From Peptostreptococcaceae bacterium (lineage in GTDB: Bacteria > Bacillota > Clostridia > Peptostreptococcales > Filifactoraceae), in the NCBI GenBank assembly GCA_030532905.1, contig JAUNKE010000003.1:1-64000 (forward strand): 64,000 bases of DNA, in the 5' to 3' direction. The notes beneath the pieces were generated by a model. The model was not told the origin of the DNA and searched no databases. It saw only the letters and a list, made by a program, of their open reading frames with translations. Of the stretch, positions 23,748-43,538 are shown one piece after another. The first letter of the stretch is position 1. Each line of letters begins with the position of its first letter. The position numbers were made by a program, and so were the translations under genes.

Positions 23748-24854
23748 TTACCGGCTTATTTGAAATTGAATACCCAATCCTTCCGATACCGCTTTAACGG
23801 ACACATAGTATTTGCCATCCAAGTAAATCGGCTTGGTCGGTGTTACAAATATCGTAATATTCTCAAGCTCGTCAGTCGCAGCAGTACCGTGGAATCCCAT
23901 ATTAAAATCAAGCGGAAAACCAGCCAGTCTGTCATTATCATAATTTCCGATTACACATCCCTCATACTCCGTCCCATCGACACTCGCACGAAAATAATAA
24001 AACAGCCCGAGAACCTCAAAATCAGATGCACCTATCATGATATCGCCATTTACCTCAATAGTATCCAATTGTGCCGTTTTTCCATTATAGCTTACATTCT
24101 TCTTCACCTTTTGGATTTTGCTCGTATCAACTATTATAGGTGAAGGAATATTCCCGTTCTCCATCCTAAATTTCTGCATTTTCGACACAACAGGTTTCTT
24201 CGGTTGAACCGGTTGAGTTGTCTGTCCGGATCCGGTAACAAGCGGTGCCGACTTCTTCAGCTCCGGTAAAGAGACGATTGTTCCACCCGAGCCTGAAGTA
24301 TTCGGTTGCATATTTGATTGGGAAGAACTCGAACCGGCCGACAAAGTTCCGCCGAGATTTTCCACCGTATAACGAAGCGGAACATAGGTGCGTCCGTTTC
24401 TCGTTGTGGCAACCACCGGTGCTTCCTTTATGATGATATTGTCTGAATTGCCGTCGGTAATCGCCGCCGCAATCTTTTGTTTACTGTCCACACCGAATGC
24501 GATTACATACCGCTCTTTGCCAAATCCTACGACATTTATTCTTTTTCCGTTTTTCTCAATCGGCTGCACAACCAAAACCGCTCCCAACGGATCAACCAAG
24601 TCGCGAGCCAATGCCATCGTCGTTCCTCTTTGAGTAAAAACTTCAATCTCCGCTAACTCTCCATTGATGTAAAATTGCTTCTTGGTAATTGCCGAAGCTT
24701 TTGAAGATACCTTTTTCTTGCTTTTTTTCTTCGCCAACTGCGTGTAACGAATCGTATTTTCCCGCTTCAAATTTCCCGATTGCGCATCCGCATAAGAAAA
24801 AGAGGATAAAAACAAGACCCCCGCCAAACAAAACGAAAATATTTTTCTTCTCAT
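23748..24854 (-). CDS. Secreted protein with copper-amine-oxidase N-terminal-like domain
   Basis: The 368-residue product starts at 24854 (MRRKIFSFCLAG), after AGGAGGTTCT, with a clear signal peptide cleaved near SYADA-Q. A Lys-rich segment (KKKSKKK) follows. One Cu_amine_oxidN1-like domain (~60-190) shows FYINGELAEIEVF, VDPLGAVLVV and the NGRTYVPLRYTVENLGG motif. A Ser/Gly/Pro-rich linker and a second, diverged domain (~240-368) ending in YYVSVKAVSEGLGIQFQI follow. In clostridia such domains are non-catalytic surface modules. It is read alone; the divergent neighbour is a small secreted protein. Confidence 0.85.
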   Translation of the reverse strand: MRRKIFSFCLAGVLFLSSFSYADAQSGNLKRENTIRYTQLAKKKSKKKVSSKASAITKKQFYINGELAEIEVFTQRGTTMALARDLVDPLGAVLVVQPIEKNGKRINVVGFGKERYVIAFGVDSKQKIAAAITDGNSDNIIIKEAPVVATTRNGRTYVPLRYTVENLGGTLSAGSSSSQSNMQPNTSGSGGTIVSLPELKKSAPLVTGSGQTTQPVQPKKPVVSKMQKFRMENGNIPSPIIVDTSKIQKVKKNVSYNGKTAQLDTIEVNGDIMIGASDFEVLGLFYYFRASVDGTEYEGCVIGNYDNDRLAGFPLDFNMGFHGTAATDELENITIFVTPTKPIYLDGKYYVSVKAVSEGLGIQFQISR

Positions 24855-25184
24855 AGAACCTCCTATGTATTTTTTCTTTAACATTCTTCTACCCAATTCT
24901 GATGAAAAATATCTTTTGAAGCGAATTTGCTTAACAAAAAAACATATTATAGCTCCGCCATCCGCTCGGTTGTTATATCAACAATATCGATTGAACAGTA
25001 ACGAAAAAATCGCTTCCTTATTATATTATCTTGTCGGATTCTTCTCCGCATTGTTTGTTCTCCAATCTTTTTCTTATTGTTCATCCGGTGTTCACAATGA
25101 AGCTTTATTATTAAGTTGTGTCAAGGACTTCTCTAAGCACAAAATATAAGAACTTGGCAACATTTAATGGAAAAGGAGTACAGA
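24855..25184. other. Divergent promoter region
   Basis: This region separates two divergent secreted-protein genes. A minus-strand TATAAT (plus positions 24946-24951) could be the -10 for the copper-amine-oxidase-N gene, without a recognisable -35. On the plus side only AT-rich strings (AAATATAAG near 25140) are seen. No small gene or clear hairpin was found. Confidence 0.4.
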
Positions 25185-25652
25185 ATGAACAAAAAATCTA
25201 TGGCTGCATTATTCGCTGCAGGATTGCTGTCCACTTCAGCTTTCGCTTTTGCGGCAGATGCAAATAACAAACCGAATTCGTCAACACAATCCGTTACGAC
25301 GACACAATCACAAAAACAAAAAAGAGAATTGACGGAGACGGAGAAAAAAGAGTTTGAAGCTCGACGAGAAGCGATGACTCAGGCAAAAAGCAAATGGAAT
25401 GCCCTGTCCGATTCGCAAAAACAGGAGGTGTATGCACTCGAAGAAAAAATAATCGCTCTGGAAAAGGAGCAAATCGACAAATTGGTTTCTCTGGGCGTAA
25501 TGGACAAAACGAGCGCCGATGCTCAAAAGAAAAAATTGGATGAGCGATTCAGCCAACAAAAACAATCCGGAGCGCTCCCTTTCGGCAAAGCTCACAAAGG
25601 CGGTAAAGGCGCAAGACCCGGCGATGCCGCTAAGAATGCAAGCACAAAATAA
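25185..25652 (+). CDS. Small secreted helical protein, DUF2680/YckD-like
   Basis: The 155-residue product starts at 25185 (MNKKSMAAL) behind AAGGAG; six upstream codons are open but lack a ribosome site. The signal peptide is cleaved near FAFAADA. A Ser/Thr/Gln-rich stretch precedes a charged helical region with ALSDSQKQEVYALEEKI and KEQIDKLVSLGVMDKTSA. These resemble the paired helices of DUF2680 (YckD-like), a family of unknown function. The tail is Gly/Lys-rich. It is monocistronic. Confidence 0.75.
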   Translation: MNKKSMAALFAAGLLSTSAFAFAADANNKPNSSTQSVTTTQSQKQKRELTETEKKEFEARREAMTQAKSKWNALSDSQKQEVYALEEKIIALEKEQIDKLVSLGVMDKTSADAQKKKLDERFSQQKQSGALPFGKAHKGGKGARPGDAAKNASTK

Positions 25653-26850: not shown

Positions 26851-26886
26851 AAAAAAGCGTAGCCCTGATACAGCTACGCAAAAAAT
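26851..26886. terminator. Terminator of the diguanylate cyclase operon
   Basis: GCGTAGC/GCTACGC stem flanked by A6 and A-rich sequence on the plus strand, so the minus-strand reading ends in TTTTTT. It lies about 55 bases past the last cyclase gene. Confidence 0.85.
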
Positions 26887-26939: not shown

Positions 26940-28706
26940 TTAATATCGAACCTGCTCTTCTTTTTTCCGCTTCTTATCCATATAAAGCGCATTGTCCGCC
27001 CGATTCATCAAATCTTCAAAACGATGGTCTAAAATGGAATCGTAATAAGCGACACCACAGGATGATGAAACCGTGAATCCTCTCTTTTGGCTTTGCATAT
27101 TCATTTGCTGCTCGACCAATCGAATCCTTTTTTCCACGATGGATCTGTCAACATTTTTGAGTACGCACAAAAACTCATCTCCGCTCATGCGATAGCACTC
27201 TCCGATGTCGGAAAAATTATCGAACAATGTCGATGCGACCGTTTGAAGCAACTCATCCCCTTTGGAATGTCCCAAAGTGTCATTGGTCAACTTGAGATTG
27301 TCCGCATCGAAAGCGATGACCGTCAGCGACATAAAGTCCGCTTGATATTCCACCAAATCTTCCATAAAAGATGTACGATTTTTCAGAGCCGTCAAGTTGT
27401 CGCGACCCGCGAGCTCTTTGTAGTATTCCATCGACTGCCCTTTTTCATAAAGCTCCGAATAGAAACGAAGCTCCTTGAGAATCAGAATGAAAAAGAACAA
27501 CGCGACGCCGACCGCTTCGAGCAATGCCGCATGTCGAAGATTCATATTCTCCTGCATTCTCGAAAGCAGCAAAAATACCAAGAGTACGAAATATCCGAAA
27601 ATCAAATTGTTGCTGCTCGGTTTACCCTCTTTACTCTCAACCATCAAGAGAAGCAGATTGAAAATGACAAACAGAATAATCAGCACCTTCTCCGATATCA
27701 ATAAATCCAGCAGAATACCGACGCCGAACAAATATCCGGAAATTTTGACCGCGATGAACAAGGCGATGAGAGCCATCTCCGTAAAGATAATCGCTCGGCA
27801 ATTCACCACCTTGGATTTTAACATATAAAAACCGAAGCTGAAGCCTGCCAGCAATTTGGACATCCCGTATATCTGGTCGAGCATCGCCGCATCATAAAAA
27901 ATATAGCGCAACACACCATTTGATGCCATCTCCGCCAAGCCCATAAAGATCGTGCTGAGCCCTAGATATTTCAAATGCTGATGATTACCGATATTGCGAT
28001 ACGGAAGAAATCCGAAAAACGCAACGATAAAACCCATTGTCGCAATCACCGCACCAATCGCGAGAGAAAAAGCTTCTCTGGTAAAAATGTAGCTGAACAT
28101 ATCTTGTCGCGATGCCAGGTAGATGTCTTTTATCTTAATCGTTTTGGAAAAATGCGGCATATGTTTTTGCTCGTGCAGATATTCACCAATCGTTCTCTCA
28201 ATCGGAGCTACCGATTGCAGAAGCGTTTTGCTTTCTTCATCATCCAAAATAAGATTTTGCAAATTTGAAATATCGATGCGAATCACATCACCGACGGATG
28301 CCTTGCCGCGCAAATCGATAAAATTCCATACTTCACCGCCAATCGTTGCGAGTTTGCTCCCTCTGTCCCGATCCAACGAATAAATCAGTCGCCCGTTGAC
28401 ATATACTTTCACCAACTGATCCTTCGTCGCGAAAGCCATGCCGCCATAGTATGAAATCGCATTGTCCACCCGCCGACGAATCGTCGCTTTGTAGCGATGC
28501 GGTGCTACCGTAATCGGCAAATCAATCTCCTGGGTCATGTGCTCCACATCGAGCTGCCATTTCTGAGAATATGACACGACTCCTCGGGACAGGGTCGCCG
28601 TCACATGATCGCTCATCACCGCTTCCACGATGCCCGCGATGCTTAAAATGACCGCAACAATCCCCAGTATGATATTCAAATATTTTATTTTTTCAAATCG
28701 TCTCAT
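26940..28706 (-). CDS. Membrane diguanylate cyclase, subfamily 1 (fourth gene of operon)
   Basis: The 588-residue protein has an N-terminal helix (~10-30), an extracytoplasmic sensor domain (~30-190, with KVYVNGRLIYS and GEVWNFIDLRG) and seven membrane helices (~200-390). A C-terminal GGDEF domain follows (DADNLKLTNDTLGHSKGDELL; active-site SGDEF at ~525). SGDEF is an accepted active variant that makes c-di-GMP from two GTP. No RxxD inhibitory site stands five residues before it. The gene starts 3 bases after the preceding gene's stop, with a weak ribosome site (GGATAGAG), suggesting coupled translation. It is closer in sensor and motif to 30381-32051 than to its immediate neighbour. Confidence 0.9.
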   Translation of the reverse strand: MRRFEKIKYLNIILGIVAVILSIAGIVEAVMSDHVTATLSRGVVSYSQKWQLDVEHMTQEIDLPITVAPHRYKATIRRRVDNAISYYGGMAFATKDQLVKVYVNGRLIYSLDRDRGSKLATIGGEVWNFIDLRGKASVGDVIRIDISNLQNLILDDEESKTLLQSVAPIERTIGEYLHEQKHMPHFSKTIKIKDIYLASRQDMFSYIFTREAFSLAIGAVIATMGFIVAFFGFLPYRNIGNHQHLKYLGLSTIFMGLAEMASNGVLRYIFYDAAMLDQIYGMSKLLAGFSFGFYMLKSKVVNCRAIIFTEMALIALFIAVKISGYLFGVGILLDLLISEKVLIILFVIFNLLLLMVESKEGKPSSNNLIFGYFVLLVFLLLSRMQENMNLRHAALLEAVGVALFFFILILKELRFYSELYEKGQSMEYYKELAGRDNLTALKNRTSFMEDLVEYQADFMSLTVIAFDADNLKLTNDTLGHSKGDELLQTVASTLFDNFSDIGECYRMSGDEFLCVLKNVDRSIVEKRIRLVEQQMNMQSQKRGFTVSSSCGVAYYDSILDHRFEDLMNRADNALYMDKKRKKEEQVRY

Positions 28707-28709
28707 ACT

Positions 28710-30371
28710 CTATCCAATCTTCATTGTAATTTTTCTAAGATACATATTCTCATCCGCTCGGTCAATCAAATCTTTGATTTTTAAATCACGACGGGAATCA
28801 TACACGGCGACGCCGGTTGCGATTTCAAGGGGACATTCGTTCTTTGAATTATATTTATGAATCTTGCTGTCCATCTCCCAAATCAACTGATTGAGCTCGT
28901 CCTCGGTTTTTCCGCTGCACAATATCGCAAATTCATCGCCGCCCAATCGAAACTTTCGATATTCCTCATTAAATACCTCACGCAGCACATCCGCCAGCGC
29001 AACGAGCAATCTGTCGCCCGCCGCATGCCCGAAGCTGTCGTTGATTTGTTTCAGATTGTTCACATCGATGGCGATGATGCCGATTTTTTGGATGTCGGTC
29101 AGCGTTTCAATCTGCTGCAAAAATGCCGATTGATTTTCCAAATTCGTCATGATGTCAATTCCGGCAATCGCTTTGTAATGCTCCACCCACATACTCAATC
29201 GTTGTGCCAGTTTGATTTCGCGTATCGCTTCCAAAGTCATCAACAGAAGAGAAATCGCCATCCCAAGCTCAATCAAGGAGGCACTCAATCTGTCGGGATC
29301 GATTTGATGTAAAAAAGTATCCAGCGAAATCAAAAAGAAGAGCACGAAGGATGGTAAAATCATTTTGCCGACGGAGGAGTTTTTACTCTCATTGTAATCT
29401 AAAATCAGCAAAAGAATTAAAATCGCTCCACCGAATAGCTTGACGATCATCTCCGCATCCGCATACTGATACACGTCAAATCCGATGCTGAAATATAAGA
29501 CCAGACGCAAGATCGTATAAACCGAAAGAATCAGCAGCATCGTCATCATCGAATTTTTGTATTTAAAATCCGGAATCAGATACATCGTCCACAAAACCGG
29601 CATACACATCAGACAGCCCGCCGTAAACGAAATCATTTTGATGACCTCTTCATCCTTAATCACGAATTGTATCCAGACATTCTTTGAAAAAAACCAAGCA
29701 AAAGAAAGCAAGGCAAATACGCCAATCCACAGAATTCGATCGGGTATCTGAGACTTTCTTCGATTGACGAAATAATAAGAAATGGCAATCAGTGAAAAAA
29801 TGAATACCCCGAAGCTGTAAACCATCGCGAATTGATTTTTGCCCAACAGAAAGCCTGCAAAATCATAATCGTCCGCCGAATACATCTTTGGCAATTTGTT
29901 ACGCCACAGCGGATAGTTCGGCGTCAACACCAATTTGATTTTGTCGCCCTGCTTCGCATATTCGGGAATATGAACAATATTCCATTTATGTCCGTAATAA
30001 TTTTTCGTGTTGAAGACATGACTCTCATTTCCGAAGCGATAAATCTCGTAGCTGTCGAAAAATGCCGCCACCCCCATGTCCTTCGTATAGAAAATCAAAC
30101 TTCCCTTGTTTATCATACAGGATGTCAACTTTCTTTCCAGTACGATGACCTGCATATCTTCATATTTATACGGAACCGTCGTGGTGATTTTTCGAAAGCG
30201 GTCTCCATCCAACGACAATCGCCAATTTGCGGATACATCCGAAATATTGTGACTGAATCTCGAGCCGTCAGCCACTTCACGATAAGCGAAAATCGCCATC
30301 GCGATACTGATCAACAACAGGAAAACATCCAGTCTTATATATTTAAAAATCCTTTTCGATTTTATCTCCAT
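28710..30371 (-). CDS. Membrane diguanylate cyclase, subfamily 2 (third gene of operon)
   Basis: The 553-residue protein has the same layout: an N-terminal helix, an outside sensor (~30-185, with GHKWNIVHIPEY and PKMYSADDYDF), seven helices, and a GGDEF domain (DVNNLKQINDSFGHAAGDRLL; canonical GGDEF at ~490). No RxxD I-site is visible, so product inhibition through that site is unlikely. It resembles 32060-33715 in the MYSA sensor motif and the canonical active site. AGGAG precedes the ATG, 9 bases after the previous stop. Confidence 0.9.
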   Translation of the reverse strand: MEIKSKRIFKYIRLDVFLLLISIAMAIFAYREVADGSRFSHNISDVSANWRLSLDGDRFRKITTTVPYKYEDMQVIVLERKLTSCMINKGSLIFYTKDMGVAAFFDSYEIYRFGNESHVFNTKNYYGHKWNIVHIPEYAKQGDKIKLVLTPNYPLWRNKLPKMYSADDYDFAGFLLGKNQFAMVYSFGVFIFSLIAISYYFVNRRKSQIPDRILWIGVFALLSFAWFFSKNVWIQFVIKDEEVIKMISFTAGCLMCMPVLWTMYLIPDFKYKNSMMTMLLILSVYTILRLVLYFSIGFDVYQYADAEMIVKLFGGAILILLLILDYNESKNSSVGKMILPSFVLFFLISLDTFLHQIDPDRLSASLIELGMAISLLLMTLEAIREIKLAQRLSMWVEHYKAIAGIDIMTNLENQSAFLQQIETLTDIQKIGIIAIDVNNLKQINDSFGHAAGDRLLVALADVLREVFNEEYRKFRLGGDEFAILCSGKTEDELNQLIWEMDSKIHKYNSKNECPLEIATGVAVYDSRRDLKIKDLIDRADENMYLRKITMKIG

Positions 30372-30380
30372 TTCAAACTC

Positions 30381-32051
30381 CTACCGCAAATAATTTTCTG
30401 AATCCTTCGAGCTGTTTTTGTCATCGTACATTTCCTTGTCCGCACGAATCATCGTATCCTGCAAATTTCTGTCCGTATCCTCGGAAAAAGTCGCCAGCCC
30501 CGCGGATATCCGAAGAAGATAAGGCTTGTTGTGATCCAATGCTCGAATCGCCTGCTTGAAGCGGAACAGATGATTGGTAATCACAAAAATATCCGCATCC
30601 GAAATGCACAAAAATTCATCACCGCTGATACGATAGCAATCGCCCAATCCGCCAAACACTTCATAAATCAACCGGCTTGCGGTGATAATCATATCATCTC
30701 CCAAATTGTGACCGAAATTGTCATTGACCGTTTTCAAATTGTCCACATCAAAACTGATGACCGAAAGCCCTTCTTTGTTCTGATTGAATCGCTGCAAATC
30801 CTCCACGAGAGAAATTCGATTCTTCAGACTCGTCATCTGATCCGTTCTCGCCAGATATTTATAGTAATTGGTCAGCTCCGCCCATTCATACAATTTCAGC
30901 GTGGTTTGAATCTCAGAAACCGCATTGATTAAGAAAAAAATCACCACACCGAGCAAAGCAAACACCGGACCGCTCACGCCGGTTCCGTAATTGAGGAGAA
31001 AATCCAGCATGACCAAGCCGAGTAGCTGAGAAAAAGAAAGTAAAATCACTTTCAACTCGCCGCGTCCTTTGCTGAAAGCATGCGCGAGCAGGAGCAAAGA
31101 ATATACCAAAGTCCCGACAATCAAAGTGACAAAAACCGCATACTCCCAAGATTCAATCAGGCGATGACGCGTCAAATGCACCGCTGAAAAAAGCACCACC
31201 CAAAGAACCGACAGCCGCATCAGATAAACCAGACTCCTTCGCTTCGACAAGGATTCGAATTGGGCGATATATCCCGCAACCGCCGTAACGGAAAGTAGGA
31301 GCGAATTATAGCCGACGATGCGCAAAGTGTAGGCGCTCAAATAATCAAAAGATACCACATTGCTGATGCTGAGCACCGATGCGGCGGCAAACAGGGAGCC
31401 GAATCCCAACATCACGATGGACGGATGCAGACCGATGGTGCGACGATACAAAAGACGGAACAGCAAAACCGAAAGCCCCATCATCATCAATAAGAGAATC
31501 ACGATATATTTATAATAATCCAGCCCCAAAGCAATCGAGAAAATTTCCTGCTGCTTTCCCATATAGATATTGCCGATTTTCACATTGCCGAATTGCGCAA
31601 AGGAAGTAAATTCCAATTTGATTTCATCCACTTCCGGACGATAATCGCGCAGCTCAACATAATGCCATAAATCACCGATATCCATTCTTCGCCCTTGATT
31701 GTCATAGTCAAAATTTGAATAGATGAGCTGATTGTTGACATAAGCCTGCACATAAGAATTGACGGCAAAGAAACCGATTCCACCTTTGCTGACCATCTCC
31801 TCGCTGATCGGACGCATGATGACGGCAACGCCGTCCGTCGTCGTAATCTGTCCGGGCACATCAATATAGCTGTATCCCCATGTGGAGCTTTGATGCCAAT
31901 GGTCATTTGCGGTCGATACATCATTGTCCCGATAATAAGTTTCGTCCGCAAATTTTTTGGTCAACGCGGCGAAAGCCAATACCATAACAAGCATCAGCAC
32001 AAACAAAAGCCAATTTATTCTATTTATATGTCGCCGAATCCATCCCCACAT
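30381..32051 (-). CDS. Membrane diguanylate cyclase, subfamily 1 (second gene of operon)
   Basis: The 556-residue protein has the sensor-7TM-GGDEF layout. The sensor contains AYVNNQLIYSNFD and DLWHYVELRDY, matching the 26940-28706 gene, as does IYMGKQQEIFS before the first of the seven helices. The cyclase part shows DVDNLKTVNDNFGHNLGDDMI and the SGDEF variant (CYRISGDEFLC). No I-site is seen. AGAGGATATT precedes the ATG, 8 bases after the upstream stop codon. Confidence 0.9.
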   Translation of the reverse strand: MWGWIRRHINRINWLLFVLMLVMVLAFAALTKKFADETYYRDNDVSTANDHWHQSSTWGYSYIDVPGQITTTDGVAVIMRPISEEMVSKGGIGFFAVNSYVQAYVNNQLIYSNFDYDNQGRRMDIGDLWHYVELRDYRPEVDEIKLEFTSFAQFGNVKIGNIYMGKQQEIFSIALGLDYYKYIVILLLMMMGLSVLLFRLLYRRTIGLHPSIVMLGFGSLFAAASVLSISNVVSFDYLSAYTLRIVGYNSLLLSVTAVAGYIAQFESLSKRRSLVYLMRLSVLWVVLFSAVHLTRHRLIESWEYAVFVTLIVGTLVYSLLLLAHAFSKGRGELKVILLSFSQLLGLVMLDFLLNYGTGVSGPVFALLGVVIFFLINAVSEIQTTLKLYEWAELTNYYKYLARTDQMTSLKNRISLVEDLQRFNQNKEGLSVISFDVDNLKTVNDNFGHNLGDDMIITASRLIYEVFGGLGDCYRISGDEFLCISDADIFVITNHLFRFKQAIRALDHNKPYLLRISAGLATFSEDTDRNLQDTMIRADKEMYDDKNSSKDSENYLR

Positions 32052-32059
32052 AATATCCT

Positions 32060-33715
32060 CTACAATTTATTGGTAATCTTTTTGAAATACATATTCTGAT
32101 CTGCTCGATTGATAAGCGAATCGATATTCGCATCGCGCTTCGGCTCATAGATCGCATAGCCGGTCGCAACACTCACTTTGTAAGCTCTCTTTACATTCAG
32201 ATGACGAATCTTACTTTCAAAATTCCACAAATCATCTTCAATTTGCTTGCTGTGCTTGTTGAAAGCGAAGATGGCAAATTCATCGCCGCCGATTCGAAAC
32301 AATTCATAGCCTGAAGTACCGAAAGCTTCCACAATCATCTTCGACACATCGACAATCATTCGGTCGCCCTCCTGATGTCCGTAGGTATCATTTATTTTTT
32401 TGAGATTGTTCACATCCATAATGATGACGCACAGATTGCTTAAATCCGTCAGCGCTTCGATTCGTCTGGAGTAGCAGTTACGATTCTTGAGCCCGGTCAG
32501 GATATCCGTTTCAAACAAAATTTGATATTTCTGCGCATCAATCGACTCTTTATAAATCGAAGCTAAATTCCCCGCAGCATTGTTCGTCACATACACGATT
32601 CCGAGAATCAACAAAAAGCTGAACAGATTGACGGAATAGAAATAATGACCCGACTTCACGATGACCAAATCGATCATCATCGCCACATACATGGCAAACA
32701 ACGGCAACATCAGACGAAAAATATCCCGATTGTCGGTTCGGTGGTAATCATCCACCAATGCCCAAATCATTGCAAGTCCCATCAAAATCATCACAAAAAG
32801 GTCAATCGGATAGATGATGAACCAATTCCCGTAGCCCATCAATTCGAGAACGACACGACTTGTAATGAAAATCATCTTGAAGAAAAGAAGAATCCGGAAC
32901 AATTTTATATGATTGGTTTGAACCATCTGACTGCAAAGTAAAAGAAGCGGCAAAATCATCAACAGACTGGTATAAGTTGTCAAAACCGACAGCAAAATTC
33001 CGTCGTTAAACACCCATCCCGTCCAAGTGATGCGCATCGAAAAGCTGACCGCCGCCAAAAAAGCGAACAATCCGATATTGAGCAGCTCATAGCTGTTTCT
33101 CTTCCAACTTTTTCGAATAAACCACAGACTGATGATTCCCATCGAAAGCACCAGCAGCAACGCACAGGTTATCATCGAAAAAATACTGTCGCGCAATACC
33201 AAGTCAAAAAAATCGACCACTTCCGCCGAATACATCATCGGCAAATTCCCGAATTCATTGGCTCGCTCATAACGAAACACGATGCTCAGATTGTCGCCCG
33301 GCGAAATATCGTGGGGCAAATCCACCACATTCCATTTCCAGCCACTGTACCAAATTTTAGAATCATTGTTATCGTAGCTGTAAACTTTTTTCTGATTGAG
33401 AAAAACCTCCACATCGACACCGACGCTGTTAAAAATCAGCGTCCGCGTCTGCAACAAAGGCGCATCGACATATCGCCAAATCCGAAGCGAATCCTCAACC
33501 GGAATATCCAATTTTGTATCAACCTTCGTCGGAAAAACTTGGTTTTGAGATTGATATAACCAATCGTTCGTCAAAACAAAAACCTTGCTTTTCAAATCAT
33601 TGCTCTTAACGGCTTTTGAAGCAAGAATAATCACAATCAAAATCGAGAATATGGCAAACAGAGCAATAAAACCGCGCAAAGCATTTTGTGTTTTTTTCTC
33701 TAATCTCTCATTCAT
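32060..33715 (-). CDS. Membrane diguanylate cyclase, subfamily 2 (first gene of operon)
   Basis: The 551-residue protein opens the four-cyclase operon. The extracytoplasmic sensor carries SGWKWNVVDLPH and PMMYSAEVVDFFD, as in the 28710-30371 gene. Seven helices follow, then a GGDEF domain with DVNNLKKINDTYGHQEGDRMI and canonical GGDEF (LFRIGGDEFAIF). No RxxD I-site is seen. The start (MNERLEKK) has a weak ribosome site (GGGATATT). A TATAAT -10 lies about 106 bases upstream. Confidence 0.9.
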   Translation of the reverse strand: MNERLEKKTQNALRGFIALFAIFSILIVIILASKAVKSNDLKSKVFVLTNDWLYQSQNQVFPTKVDTKLDIPVEDSLRIWRYVDAPLLQTRTLIFNSVGVDVEVFLNQKKVYSYDNNDSKIWYSGWKWNVVDLPHDISPGDNLSIVFRYERANEFGNLPMMYSAEVVDFFDLVLRDSIFSMITCALLLVLSMGIISLWFIRKSWKRNSYELLNIGLFAFLAAVSFSMRITWTGWVFNDGILLSVLTTYTSLLMILPLLLLCSQMVQTNHIKLFRILLFFKMIFITSRVVLELMGYGNWFIIYPIDLFVMILMGLAMIWALVDDYHRTDNRDIFRLMLPLFAMYVAMMIDLVIVKSGHYFYSVNLFSFLLILGIVYVTNNAAGNLASIYKESIDAQKYQILFETDILTGLKNRNCYSRRIEALTDLSNLCVIIMDVNNLKKINDTYGHQEGDRMIVDVSKMIVEAFGTSGYELFRIGGDEFAIFAFNKHSKQIEDDLWNFESKIRHLNVKRAYKVSVATGYAIYEPKRDANIDSLINRADQNMYFKKITNKL

Positions 33716-34105
33716 AATATCCCGTTTCGAATGAAGCGCTGCCGCGTTTCACTCAAAAATAAAATCCTTTCAAAAATAGACATCCAACCGAATCGAAAAT
33801 CTCGGTTTTAGGATATGTATATTATAACAGTTTCACAACAAAAATGTAATGCCTTTCAACAAAAAAGACGCTCTAAAGCGTGTTAAATTCCATATTTTTA
33901 TCTCAGATATTCATTTTCCTGTAATAATATCGTAATTTTATGCTTGATTCTTAATACCGAATTTGAATTTTAACTCAGACTTACGCCGCATAAAAATCGA
34001 TTCCTATTCTGTTTTGTAAAAATTTGTGCGATTGACGACGTTTGAGATTATCTTTTCAATTTTCGGGTACATATTATAGTGGAGACAAAATTAAGGAGGT
34101 TATGT
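33716..34105. other. Divergent region between cyclase operon and ferritin
   Basis: Contains a minus-strand TATAAT (plus 33821-33826) as likely -10 of the cyclase operon. Also present is a minus-strand terminator-like hairpin ACGCT-ttag-AGCGT followed by CTTTTTT (33861-33881). The hairpin lies upstream of that -10, so it may end a short upstream transcript. The ferritin side has TATTAT near 34073 with no clear -35; no Fur or PerR box was recognised. Confidence 0.45.
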
Positions 34106-38762: not shown

Positions 38763-41700
38763 ATGAACAAAAGAAGTATCAAAAACTTGTTATCATCAAT
38801 GCTCGCTCTGCTTATGGTTTTCAATTCATTTAATTTTGCCTATGCGAACCAAAGCGGAAATCAAAAAGCAAGCGAAAAAACAAGACAACAGGTTTTAGAA
38901 AAAGCAAATCAACTGCTCGCTCAAGAAAATTTGACGGAGCGTTTTTTGGGGACGGTATTTTTACATGGTGCAACTCGAGAGCCCGGTTATGTGATCGGCT
39001 CGGACAAGTATCCTATTCCAAGCGATGCACTGTCATCAACAGCTTGGTACAATATATGGCAGGTCGCTGCCGAAAGCAAGGTGATGCTCAACAGCTACAC
39101 GGAAAAACTTGCGCTCAATCGCCTGAACGAAATGGCGTATTACGAGATGCTGTACGGTTTTAAGATGAGCAATCATTTGGCAAAGGACGGCTTCTACGAA
39201 GGCAATTTCAAAATTTACGATATGAACTTCAACGGAGGAAGCGTTCATCACCAATCTTTTTACAAAAAAGGCGCACTCAACCCTGCCTTGAGAGAACTAT
39301 TTTCCGATGTTGCCGTATTCAAATCCGGTAACGATTTGGAAATCACTTTTGCACTCAACAAGGCAAAAGCAAGAGAAGTTCAATATGTGAATGTCAATCA
39401 GATTGCAACGATTCAAGCACCGGTTGAACTCGGTCCTCAGGATAAGGAGAAAACTTTGTTCCTCATCAAAGTGCCCGGAGAAGTCGCTGTTGAGAATCTG
39501 GTGATTTCTCGAATGAGTTATGTCGACGCGACGGGAAAGGAACAAAAAACCGGTCCATTCGGAGTTGAAATCGACTATAAAACATTGCAATTTGACAAAG
39601 ACTATGTTTTGCCGAACTACAAACAAAATATGCAAACTAAAATTCAAAATTGGATCAATCGCGGTGATAATCTGGTAAGGGGTTATCTTTCGGATAAAAA
39701 ACAAATCGATCGGGTCAATGCCGTCATTGTTCAACTTCAAAAAGCCAAAGTTCAGCCGGATTTGACATTGAATCAGCTTTATACAATGGTAAAGCCGATT
39801 CATACCATTGAAAACGAATTGACCTTGCAGGATTTGGTCTTGAAGAAAATAACCGACCACAGAGAATCCTTGGAAGACGGTTTTTACTCCAAAGAGGTTT
39901 ATACCAAAGAAAGTATTGATGCTTATCAAACATTCCTCGATAAGACGGAAAGCAAAATTCACGAAAAAAATCTGTCCGAGTTGATGGAAATCAATGCAAT
40001 GCTTGACAAGGCAACACTCAATACGATTTTGCGATTCAATATCGCACCGCTGAAAAAACTGTTGCAAATCACAGAGAACAAGAATATCAATGATTATACC
40101 GAAAAAACACTTCCTGCGTTTTTGAAGGCAAAATCCGATGCGAAGCAATGGATTGAACTTAATGAAGAAATGCAACCGAGCCTCAATGAGACGGATACAC
40201 ATCTTTCCGCATTGCTCAAAGCCACCAATAAATTGGTTCGCAAAGACGGCAAAAAAGAAAAGCCGATTGACAAAAAAGACTTATTTGAGCCGGAGAATAA
40301 TAATCCGAGACCTCAGGAAGAGAAAATTTACACCGTCATCGGAGAATTTTTGAACTCAAACAACTGGCGACAACCTTCCGATTTAAAGGATATGTTTGAA
40401 ACCAAGATCAAGTTGATCGAAGACGGAACAGGAAATGCCAAAATCCATTTGGATTTAAATCTTATCAAAGATGCGGCGGGGCTTCCGCATAAAGCGGCAA
40501 CCAGAGTGGACTTTAACAAAGATGGAAAGATTACCACCGCGGAAGCTTTAGAGAATTCGACCATTGAATTTGAAGGCAGTGCAACCGTACCGAGTACCAT
40601 TGTGAAGATTGTAGAGAAAGCGGAAATTACAAATATCGATACGAAGAGTACAAAGCCGATCACCTTATACATGTACTACTTTGACAAAGACGCTCATCGA
40701 GTACTGTCCAAGGATGTTGCACTTCGAATCAATTTTGATGACAAAAAACCGGGCTTTGACGAATATGCTCCGCCAAGCGACAAGATTTACACCGTCAATG
40801 TGCGGTTCTTAAACGCAAAGGAACTCGACAAAGAATCCCATGCCAACGCAACGCTTGTTCCACGAGCGAAGTTGGAAGTGAAGGGAAATGACCAAAAACT
40901 CACCCTAAAACTCAAACCGATGATGAATGGTCAAAATCAGGTTTCCGGCGTGCTGACCAATCTATTCTATTACAACGACAGATTCGACAAAGTTCCGGCA
41001 ACCAAGCATGATGAAAAGACAATCGAGATTCATTTTCAAGGCAAAAGTAAAAAATACACCTATCCGACAGCAGTCAGTTTGCCGGTTGACGGACATTCCG
41101 CATTGGTGAAATGCAGCGTCGAATCCGGAACTCCGGTATTCGACGAACCTCATGTCGATGATGTGTACTTGGAAATCAACTACGACTCAAAGCGCGAAGG
41201 TTATAACGAAAACGAAGCCGACAAGTCTCTGTTGACCGATTTAATCAATATTTTGGACGGTTCATATTACAAAAGCATCGCGGACAAAATCCCTGCTGAA
41301 TTGAAGCGACAATTAGAAAATGAGCTTGAAAAAGCGAAAAATATTCAAAAAGACCCGCAAGCAAAAGAGCAGGATATTCAACTTTCCGTTATGACATTGA
41401 GTCGTTTGAAAGAACAAATCGACTTCTTCATCATTTTGGATACAACACTCAAGCAAGTCGATGCCGATTTCAAATCGGACGAAAGAAATCAAAACTACTC
41501 CAAAGAGAGTAAGGACAATGCAAAAAAATATATCGAAGATAAAAAGAAAGAAATTGAGAACTATCTGAAGCAAGATAATTTTTCAAAAGATGTTGCTCAA
41601 AAGATGCTCAAGGATTTAAGCAACTACCACTCCTTGCTTCGATATGACATTACAGAGCTTGAAAATGTGATAAAACAGGCCGAGGAAAAAATCAACAGCA

Positions 41701-43538
41701 ATCAATACAGCGACGAAACCGTTCAAGCGCTTCAAGCGGTGTTGTTGAAAGCAAAAGCCTATGTTGAGAAAGCAAAAGAAACCAAGTTTATCGCTGACGA
41801 GCGTGCAACGCATATCAAAAACTTGAACGAAGCCATCGGCAATCTGATTGAAAAACAGAAAAAACCGAATCTGATTACCGCCATGCTGGATGCAAAATTA
41901 ATGCAACCAAGCGGCAAAGAATCCATGGCGAGTAATTTCTTAGAGAATAAAAAAGTGAAGGTCATCTACAACAAAGACCTGAACAATACCACTTATGAAA
42001 TGACCTTTAATGTAACCGTTCTAAGCTCTGCCGACATTGATGCGCCGAAACAAACAGCGGACGCACCGATGATGCTACCTGAAAACGAAGAGCTGAAAAA
42101 TGATGCACTCCTCAAGAAATATACCGCTGCTTTTGATTCGGAAAATCAAAATGAAAATCCAAAGAGTGACATCTCTACCGTTATTGAAGAAAGTCATGCG
42201 GACGAGTTGGCATCGGAAAACATGGCGGATCTCTCCAAAATCGCCAGAGAAGAAATCCTGCCCGTCGCGGAGAGTTTTACATCCGAAAATTCAGCCGAAA
42301 GCGTTCAAAGCAAAAAGCCGCTTGCGTTTTGGTACAAAGACGGCGGAGAATACAAAGAAACGGAAGTTGTTCATCAAGATAAGCAAAAAATGACCTTCCG
42401 ATTCACCGTTGCCGGTAAGGTACAGCAAAAAACCGAAATGAAAGTTTATGTCGGAATAATGAATTCCACCAACGAAGTGAATTTGGAGCTTACAATCCCG
42501 GATGATTTCTACGGCAATGACAATGATAAGATTAAGGAAGCCAAAGACGCTCTTCAAAAACTTGTGGATAAAGCGAAGACATACCAAGCCGAAGATTTTG
42601 ACAAGGACTCTTTTGACAAATTGACCGCAGAGATTCAAAAAGCTGAAGAGCTGCTCAAAAGAGATGCGAGCGAGCAGGAGTTGAGCAATGCTGCGAACAG
42701 CTTGCAGACGGCAATCGACTCACTCAAACCGAAGACGGACAACAAAATCAAAGAAGCCAAAGACGCTCTTCAAAAACTTGTGGATAAAGCGAAGACATAC
42801 CAAGCCGAAGATTTTGACAAGGACTCTTTTGACAAATTGACCGCGGAGATTCAAAAAGCTGAAGAGCTGCTCAAAAGAGATGCGAGCGAGCAGGAGTTGG
42901 GAAATGCTACGAACAGCTTGCAGATGGCAATCGACTCACTCAAAAAGAAAGATAATTCGAATTCCGGCGGCGGCTCAGGCGGTTCAGGCGGCTCGAATTC
43001 CGGCGGTTCGGGCGGTTCTTCAAACAGAAATTCCCAACGCCCTGATAATAAGAGCAATTCAACCCCAAGCACTTCCAAAGCGGAAGAAATTAAACCGTCC
43101 ATCGTTCCTTTGGCGGCAAAATCTTCTTCCACTGCGATACTGACTATCAATTCCAAAAACTACACCTTGACAGTGGATGGTAAGGTGCAAAACAAACAAT
43201 TGGATGTAGCACCGATTATCGAAAAAGGACGCACCATGCTTCCGATTCGTGCGATTGCAGAGCTTCTGAACATTCAATTACGCTATGACCATCAAAGCAA
43301 GACCGTGCATTTTATGTATGCCGACAATGGTGTAAATAATACGATTGAAATTAAAACGGGAAGTATGGCGATGAAGGTGAACGGCAACGACAAGATGATG
43401 AGTGCGAAGCCGATAACGAAGAATTCTCGCATTCTTCTTCCGCTCAGCGATATCCAAAAAGCTCTGGCGGAATTGGGATTGCAATCTGAAATTTCATGGA
43501 ATCCTTCCTCCAAGCAGGTTAAAATTGTAACTCATTAA
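38763..43538 (+). CDS. Large surface protein with NEAT-like, FIVAR and copper-amine-oxidase-N domains
   Basis: The 1591-residue protein has a signal peptide cleaved near FAYANQ. At least two regions look like NEAT haem-binding domains: ~521-664 and ~674-814 (the latter with ANATLVPRAKLEVKGNDQKL). A third candidate lies at ~1036-1246 (SMASNFLENKKVKVIY). A charged helical segment (~815-1030) separates them. Two nearly identical 72-residue FIVAR-like repeats (~1256-1399), a Gly/Ser linker, and a C-terminal Cu_amine_oxidN1-like domain (NSKNYTLTVDGKV; GRTMLPIRAIAELL) follow. It lacks an APKTG signal, so it may bind the wall through its end domain. A role in haem capture is inferred from the NEAT similarity alone. 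Confidence 0.78.
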   Translation: MNKRSIKNLLSSMLALLMVFNSFNFAYANQSGNQKASEKTRQQVLEKANQLLAQENLTERFLGTVFLHGATREPGYVIGSDKYPIPSDALSSTAWYNIWQVAAESKVMLNSYTEKLALNRLNEMAYYEMLYGFKMSNHLAKDGFYEGNFKIYDMNFNGGSVHHQSFYKKGALNPALRELFSDVAVFKSGNDLEITFALNKAKAREVQYVNVNQIATIQAPVELGPQDKEKTLFLIKVPGEVAVENLVISRMSYVDATGKEQKTGPFGVEIDYKTLQFDKDYVLPNYKQNMQTKIQNWINRGDNLVRGYLSDKKQIDRVNAVIVQLQKAKVQPDLTLNQLYTMVKPIHTIENELTLQDLVLKKITDHRESLEDGFYSKEVYTKESIDAYQTFLDKTESKIHEKNLSELMEINAMLDKATLNTILRFNIAPLKKLLQITENKNINDYTEKTLPAFLKAKSDAKQWIELNEEMQPSLNETDTHLSALLKATNKLVRKDGKKEKPIDKKDLFEPENNNPRPQEEKIYTVIGEFLNSNNWRQPSDLKDMFETKIKLIEDGTGNAKIHLDLNLIKDAAGLPHKAATRVDFNKDGKITTAEALENSTIEFEGSATVPSTIVKIVEKAEITNIDTKSTKPITLYMYYFDKDAHRVLSKDVALRINFDDKKPGFDEYAPPSDKIYTVNVRFLNAKELDKESHANATLVPRAKLEVKGNDQKLTLKLKPMMNGQNQVSGVLTNLFYYNDRFDKVPATKHDEKTIEIHFQGKSKKYTYPTAVSLPVDGHSALVKCSVESGTPVFDEPHVDDVYLEINYDSKREGYNENEADKSLLTDLINILDGSYYKSIADKIPAELKRQLENELEKAKNIQKDPQAKEQDIQLSVMTLSRLKEQIDFFIILDTTLKQVDADFKSDERNQNYSKESKDNAKKYIEDKKKEIENYLKQDNFSKDVAQKMLKDLSNYHSLLRYDITELENVIKQAEEKINSNQYSDETVQALQAVLLKAKAYVEKAKETKFIADERATHIKNLNEAIGNLIEKQKKPNLITAMLDAKLMQPSGKESMASNFLENKKVKVIYNKDLNNTTYEMTFNVTVLSSADIDAPKQTADAPMMLPENEELKNDALLKKYTAAFDSENQNENPKSDISTVIEESHADELASENMADLSKIAREEILPVAESFTSENSAESVQSKKPLAFWYKDGGEYKETEVVHQDKQKMTFRFTVAGKVQQKTEMKVYVGIMNSTNEVNLELTIPDDFYGNDNDKIKEAKDALQKLVDKAKTYQAEDFDKDSFDKLTAEIQKAEELLKRDASEQELSNAANSLQTAIDSLKPKTDNKIKEAKDALQKLVDKAKTYQAEDFDKDSFDKLTAEIQKAEELLKRDASEQELGNATNSLQMAIDSLKKKDNSNSGGGSGGSGGSNSGGSGGSSNRNSQRPDNKSNSTPSTSKAEEIKPSIVPLAAKSSSTAILTINSKNYTLTVDGKVQNKQLDVAPIIEKGRTMLPIRAIAELLNIQLRYDHQSKTVHFMYADNGVNNTIEIKTGSMAMKVNGNDKMMSAKPITKNSRILLPLSDIQKALAELGLQSEISWNPSSKQVKIVTH
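42529..42960 (+). repeat. Two tandem 216-bp copies encoding FIVAR-like modules
   Basis: Copies at 42529-42744 and 42745-42960 are offset by exactly 216 bases (72 codons). Over ~42537-42720 they match almost base for base (for example GCCAAAGACGCTCTTC at both); only a handful of substitutions separate them. The encoded modules contain KEAKDALQKLVDKA and AEELLKRDASEQEL. Confidence 0.9.

Follow-up and report, generated by a model that had tools for sequence, protein, structure and literature searches.

Duplication of a receptor gene pair as the simplest history of a four-cyclase operon in a Peptostreptococcaceae bacterium

The window analysed here, a stretch of 64,000 nucleotides from contig JAUNKE010000003.1 of a Peptostreptococcaceae bacterium, contains four consecutive genes for membrane-bound GGDEF proteins, in which two types, A (genes 1 and 3) and B (genes 2 and 4), alternate. 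This arrangement raises the questions of how the ABAB order arose and whether the A and B members work in parallel or jointly. The genes are co-directional on the minus strand, run from 33715 to 26940 and are separated by gaps of 8, 9 and 3 nt. The features are as follows:

32060..33715, minus strand: gene 1, A type, 551 aa; transmembrane helix, outside beta domain, 7TM part and GGDEF domain; motifs FRIGGDEF and DVNNLKKIND
30381..32051, minus strand: gene 2, B type, 556 aa; architecture of gene 1 with SGDEF; motifs YRISGDEF and DVDNLKTVND; structure model m2bde964ac026
28710..30371, minus strand: gene 3, A type, 553 aa; GGDEF; motifs FRLGGDEF and DVNNLKQIND; structure model mcf3c56a72ea8
26940..28706, minus strand: gene 4, B type, 588 aa; SGDEF; motifs YRMSGDEF and DADNLKLTND; outside domain with an approximately 35-residue insert
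33821..33850, minus strand: promoter-like site upstream of gene 1, a consensus match only (ATTACA, 18 nt, TATAAT; the second hexamer is preceded by TG)
26857..26879, minus strand: terminator-like hairpin right after gene 4, a consensus match only (8 pairs followed by a T run)

Between positions 25600 and 34200, 30 promoter-like sites were found versus 17.2 expected in shuffled sequences, and 14 terminator-like hairpins versus 8.6. Two promoter-like sites within the operon (32983 and 28696) score as high as the upstream one, and a single transcript, on which one promoter would drive all four receptor cyclase genes, is therefore a prediction only. An Rfam scan of the window gave no match at the gathering score. 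The source genome has 10 GGDEF matches in apparently nine proteins, two of the matches sharing one reading frame, and the operon provides four of these approximately nine proteins. Other tandem genes are found elsewhere in the same genome: two adjacent, clearly related GGEEF proteins of 756 and 763 aa (L120:3410-8484, contig C33) represent another tandem cyclase duplication, and two related genes side by side, for proteins of 410 and 413 aa that match EAL in part (L121:3820-6294, contig C107), form a third tandem pair of the c-di-GMP type. The window itself also encodes two copper amine oxidase N1 proteins (38763-43538 and 23748-24896), one of them 1591 aa long with FIVAR domains, which are probably surface proteins.

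All four proteins pass the curated cut-off of the Pfam GGDEF family (PF00990, 23.8 bits), with 84.9, 72.9, 99.2 and 101.8 bits for genes 1 to 4. The Pfam scan placed no second family above its cut-off in any of them, and among NCBIfam models only the general GGDEF domain exceeded the cut-off. The first-pass annotation had described GGDEF with NNLKxIND in genes 1 and 3 and SGDEF with DNLKxxND in genes 2 and 4, and both the open reading frames and the alignment agree with this alternation. Motifs were counted in 12 operon proteins, i.e., those of the window and their counterparts in two other genomes of the genus, and in 17 relatives from the order. The letter-perfect GG(D/E)EF motif is present in all six A proteins, while all six B proteins read SGDEF and depart from it; the B type is assigned to the GGDEF domain family because it passes the curated cut-off, and active SGDEF enzymes have been published.

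Each protein consists of an N-terminal membrane helix, an outside beta domain, approximately seven further helices, a signalling helix and the GGDEF domain. AlphaFold models, built for genes 3 and 2 from nine-sequence alignments and of modest confidence (mean pLDDT 75.7 and 80.8, respectively), share the same order: one helix, some 120 residues of beta-rich outside domain, about seven helices, a long helix and GGDEF; hydropathy likewise places seven helices after the outside beta domain. The suggestion that A and B sense through two different outside domains does not survive this comparison, as the four outside domains align end to end with common invariant positions, and the alignment and the models both indicate a single homologous domain. 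The sensor motifs proposed for the two types are present in the window, although their meaning changes. MYSA occurs literally only in window genes 1 and 3, their orthologues having IYSA, VYAA or IYAA; the same columns read IYMG and IYLA in window genes 2 and 4, and IYMG, IYLA, IYVG, IYAG or IYLG across the B type. The B motif YVNxxLIYS aligns with FLNQKKVYS and FFDSYEIYR of genes 1 and 3, which makes them two states of one site; this second site keeps its tyrosine in 12/12 operon proteins. In a fold search, the GGDEF domain of the gene 2 model resembled that of DgcB (6ttr_A, Z 19.8, 2.1 Å over 173 residues), and the top lists obtained with the models of genes 3 and 2 were filled by GGDEF-domain matches. 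A search with the sequence profile A2 for a solved relative of the outside domain gave no convincing match, and the coiled-coil register of A versus B, compared by eye in the alignment, is ambiguous.

The origin of the alternation was addressed by phylogeny, as the first-pass annotation had proposed. In a tree of 29 full-length proteins (the 12 from the genus and the 17 relatives as outgroups), genes 1 and 3 group together with a support of 100/99.9 and genes 2 and 4 with 100/99.6, and the copies of each gene from the three genomes form a separate clade. The groupings {1,2}, {3,4}, {1,4} and {2,3} were all rejected by the AU test (p = 0.0016, 0.0020, 0.0024 and 0.0018, respectively). Thus, the proteins are neither grouped by adjacency nor equally distant from each other, and the alternation of motifs goes beyond chance. 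The sensor half alone gives the same clades (A 97/95, B 99/97), as does the GGDEF half alone (A 89/85, B 98/90), which rules out a domain swap or gene conversion that made only one half alike. A larger tree of 47 proteins, including relatives from the class, again recovers A (100/100) and B (100/99) and rejects {1,2} with a p-AU of 2.5e-06. The union of all twelve operon proteins in one clade is not resolved in the 29-protein tree and weak (82/65) in the 47-protein tree.

Relative to speciation, the duplication is dated to 2.35 (2.09–2.55) for A and 2.58 (2.31–2.88) for B, and the split between A and B to 3.26 (2.94–3.59) in the same units; the ages are point estimates from FastTree, with ranges from 100 resamples of alignment columns. 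These ages fit a single event without proving it. The slightly older point estimate for B could also reflect separate duplications of A and B, the copies of which came to alternate through rearrangement, but the intervals overlap, the median B/A ratio of 1.10 has a range (0.98–1.27) that includes 1, and more events would be needed; this history is decidedly improbable. A single event in which an A-B pair was duplicated in tandem would be the simplest history, and the earlier proposal of a two-gene unit whose halves had already diverged is borne out by the clades, the half-trees, the AU tests and the compatible ages. An extant stand-alone A-B pair of the ancestral kind was sought and none was found among the sampled genomes of the order and class; the coupled pairs from G008 and family f37 described below form clades of their own.

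All four genes are present in both other genomes of the genus, G001 and G002, even though the window proteins share, gene by gene, only 33–48% identity with their counterparts in the sensor half and 49–61% in the GGDEF half, indicating that the duplication predates the ancestor of the genus. The full unbroken order is found only in the window and in G001, a second species, where the ABAB arrangement is retained at a sensor identity of 33–45%, and a gene-3-type end adjoins gene 4 in all three genomes. The flanking genes of the window differ from those in G001 and G002, and the operon has therefore been kept as a block in changed surroundings. In G002, genes 1 to 3 are located on contig C20, with gene 3 cut by the contig end, and gene 4 is on contig C52. 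The 92 bases in front of gene 4 encode the tail of a gene-3-type protein, and this tail and the end of gene 3 on C20 do not match (L032:1-1609 and L033:6669-8545). One neighbour on C52, a 792-aa protein that is FliD-like by eye, shares 84% identity with its G001 counterpart, whereas the sensor half of gene 4 reaches only 51%. Either the two contigs of this metagenome genome stem from different strains or it contains one further A gene.

The two types differ at defined positions of the catalytic domain. The first motif position is G in 6/6 A proteins, S in 6/6 B proteins and G in 17/17 relatives; the position equivalent to PleD D329 is N in all A proteins, D in all B proteins and N in 15 of the 17 relatives. 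By these counts, the B state is the unusual one in this receptor group at both positions. The genus-wide fixation of the serine in the six B proteins, with none of the 17 relatives having it, is a new observation. In addition, Cys-Tyr precedes the arginine of the motif region in 6/6 B proteins. PleD residues D327, N335, D344, E371 and K442 provide contacts to metal, guanine and phosphate. The equivalents of the first four are retained in 12/12 operon proteins and K442 in 11/11, the twelfth (gene 3 of G002, G2_3) being unreadable there because of the contig end. Orthologue identity in the GGDEF domain of the 12 proteins is 48–72%, and the catalytic positions are kept wherever they can be read. 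A change of the guanine-contact aspartate, the mark of Hypr-type enzymes that make cGAMP, was not seen, D344 being retained in all twelve. The RxxD inhibitory site, already reported missing from the four window proteins, is absent at the I-site positions of all 12 operon proteins, so that product inhibition at this site would not be expected.

Whether the B proteins synthesise c-di-GMP depends on the effect of the serine. VCA0965 lost its activity when the first residue of the motif was replaced by serine (PMC3974145), and the long conservation of this residue is what would be seen if it served as a functional switch. On these grounds, the B proteins could be non-producing modulators in which SGDEF abolishes synthesis and which bind GTP or an A protein, thereby tuning or blocking A. 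The metal-, guanine- and phosphate-contact positions are, however, intact in all six B proteins, unlike in decayed enzymes. Moreover, evidence of c-di-GMP synthesis is described for the SGDEF protein ECA3270 of Pectobacterium (PMC3974145) and evidence of activity in vivo for the SGDEF protein MbaA of Vibrio cholerae (PMC8079147). Seen together with the loss in VCA0965, these accounts suggest that SGDEF activity depends on context. A modulator role is therefore improbable, and the B-type motif need not mean an inactive enzyme, to judge from the other catalytic residues and the published precedents.

Matches to the sensor profile were obtained in 30 of 297 genomes from the order (E up to 0.001), three of them from the genus, and in 38 of 391 from the class (1e-8), one of which was the window's own. 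Outside the genus, no sampled genome showed more than two matches among the candidates scored (at most six per genome in the order and four in the class). Among 40 fetched loci whose neighbourhoods were inspected, tandem genes of the same type occur at six: two in G008, a genome of the window's family (L065, L066), and one in each of four f37 genomes (L100, L101, L102, L112). Their gaps or overlaps are 42, -4, -20, -20, -8 and -8 nt, and the tree places the first L066 gene with the others, although it has no sensor-profile match of its own. In the tree, the f37 pairs cluster in a clade of their own (100/100), distinct from A and B, and the G008 proteins in another; pairing therefore arose independently on at least two further occasions, and its separate origin in two other lineages is also a new observation. 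At three loci, in three genomes of sister genera (L067:5685-9654, L068:5884-9421 and L069:3597-6656), a single 7TM-GGDEF gene lies beside a GGDEF-EAL gene, a cyclase–phosphodiesterase pairing in place of a cyclase array. The matched protein lacks a GGDEF match at seven loci (L072, L073, L074, L082, L111, L113 and L116), and no GGDEF neighbour was found on the same strand at operon distance at the other remaining loci, some of which end near a contig edge. In other families, most of the inspected loci have a relative of this architecture as a lone gene, suggesting that the protein can work without a partner gene.

These observations bear on the question of joint function. Strict A-B adjacency and the recurrence of coupled pairs elsewhere hint that partners may work jointly, not in parallel. 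In the strongest form of this idea, A and B are obligate heterodimers, genes 1 and 2 and genes 3 and 4 each encoding one two-input receptor, and both genes of the pair would have been duplicated together since each depends on the other. The gaps of 3–9 nt, the ABAB order kept in G001, the B-specific serine, aspartate and Cys-Tyr in 6/6 proteins, and the overlapping or near-touching genes of the f37 and G008 pairs would all suit such an arrangement. Set against them, most inspected relatives are single genes, making partnerless function the likely ancestral state; the B proteins lose no known catalytic residue that would necessitate a partner; and the published SGDEF proteins act with no GGDEF partner reported in the accessible text (PMC3974145, PMC8079147). 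Obligate heterodimers are accordingly unlikely, though to be taken seriously. The bolder proposal that each A-B pair forms an obligate heterodimeric two-input cyclase with an active site joining the GGDEF and SGDEF halves, that single 7TM cyclases of the class gave rise to this design more than once, and that the operon thus comprises two coincidence detectors is speculative and rather unlikely.

The best explanation of the whole, to which we assign a probability of roughly two in three, is a pair-duplicated operon of four parallel membrane receptor diguanylate cyclases that feed the c-di-GMP pool. Four parallel cyclases are the most likely arrangement, and A:B heterodimers or paired sensing are possible. 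Each outside domain would sense a different ligand or surface cue, and the signal, passed on through the helix, would bring two GGDEF domains of the same protein together as a homodimer that makes c-di-GMP from GTP, the SGDEF members being presumably active or conditionally active. The four inputs would sum into a c-di-GMP pool read, among others, by a PilZ protein, and motility would be lowered as long as the cues are present. The source genome contains one PilZ match, with neighbours recognised by eye as flagellar-type, as well as a protein in which EAL is combined with GGDEF matches, and two more matches of the EAL type.

The operon provides a clean natural example of a signalling gene pair that has been duplicated together and has stayed intact, with a changed catalytic motif fixed in one half of the pair while the remainder diverged. 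It allows two questions to be tested, namely the effect of substitutions at the first position of the GGDEF motif and the formation of heterodimers by neighbouring cyclases. That coupled pairs recur in other lineages points to a benefit of pairing as such; apart from possible heterodimers, the locus is otherwise an orderly receptor expansion.

Literature on tandem or adjacent cyclase genes, on c-di-GMP in oral Peptostreptococcaceae and on heterodimeric clostridial cyclases yielded, in the text available, no report of this operon, and the closest systems share different parts of it. The architecture is like that of 7TMR-DISM receptors fused to GGDEF (PF07695/PF07696 with PF00990), which combine an outside beta domain, seven helices, a signalling helix and a cyclase output. 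Neither PF07695 nor PF07696 exceeded its cut-off in the four window proteins, and the sensor halves of genes 2 and 4 scanned alone gave no match. PF07695 (7TMR-DISM_7TM) matches 5/7 scanned outside relatives weakly and near full length, none reaching the curated cut-off, and the receptor is therefore called 7TMR-DISM-like and not filed as a member. For the 7TMR-DISMED2 outside domain, the accessible part of a review gives a prediction of carbohydrate sensing through a jellyroll fold (PMC8846402).

The dgcA-dgcB genes of Listeria monocytogenes (lmo1911-lmo1912) are likewise two diverged membrane GGDEF paralogues, approximately 30% identical, 20 bp apart and likely in an operon, each with cyclase activity (PMC4125290). 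They differ in that there are two genes with six or eight helices and an EAL phosphodiesterase in the operon; there is no second copy of the pair, and SGDEF is not mentioned in the available text (PMC4125290). The LA2926-LA2933 locus of Leptospira interrogans is also a tandem array of related cyclases, comprising seven PAS-GGDEF genes, but its sensors are PAS domains, and an alternating pattern of two subfamilies is not mentioned in the accessible text of that report (PMC5932348). ECA3270 and MbaA have the serine in common with the B proteins, as far as their accessible descriptions go, but belong to distant hosts and have no link to a doubled gene pair, and MbaA additionally contains an EAL-type domain and has a binding-protein partner (PMC8079147). 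Compared with these systems, the operon is an unusual arrangement of well-known parts and not a new kind of system.
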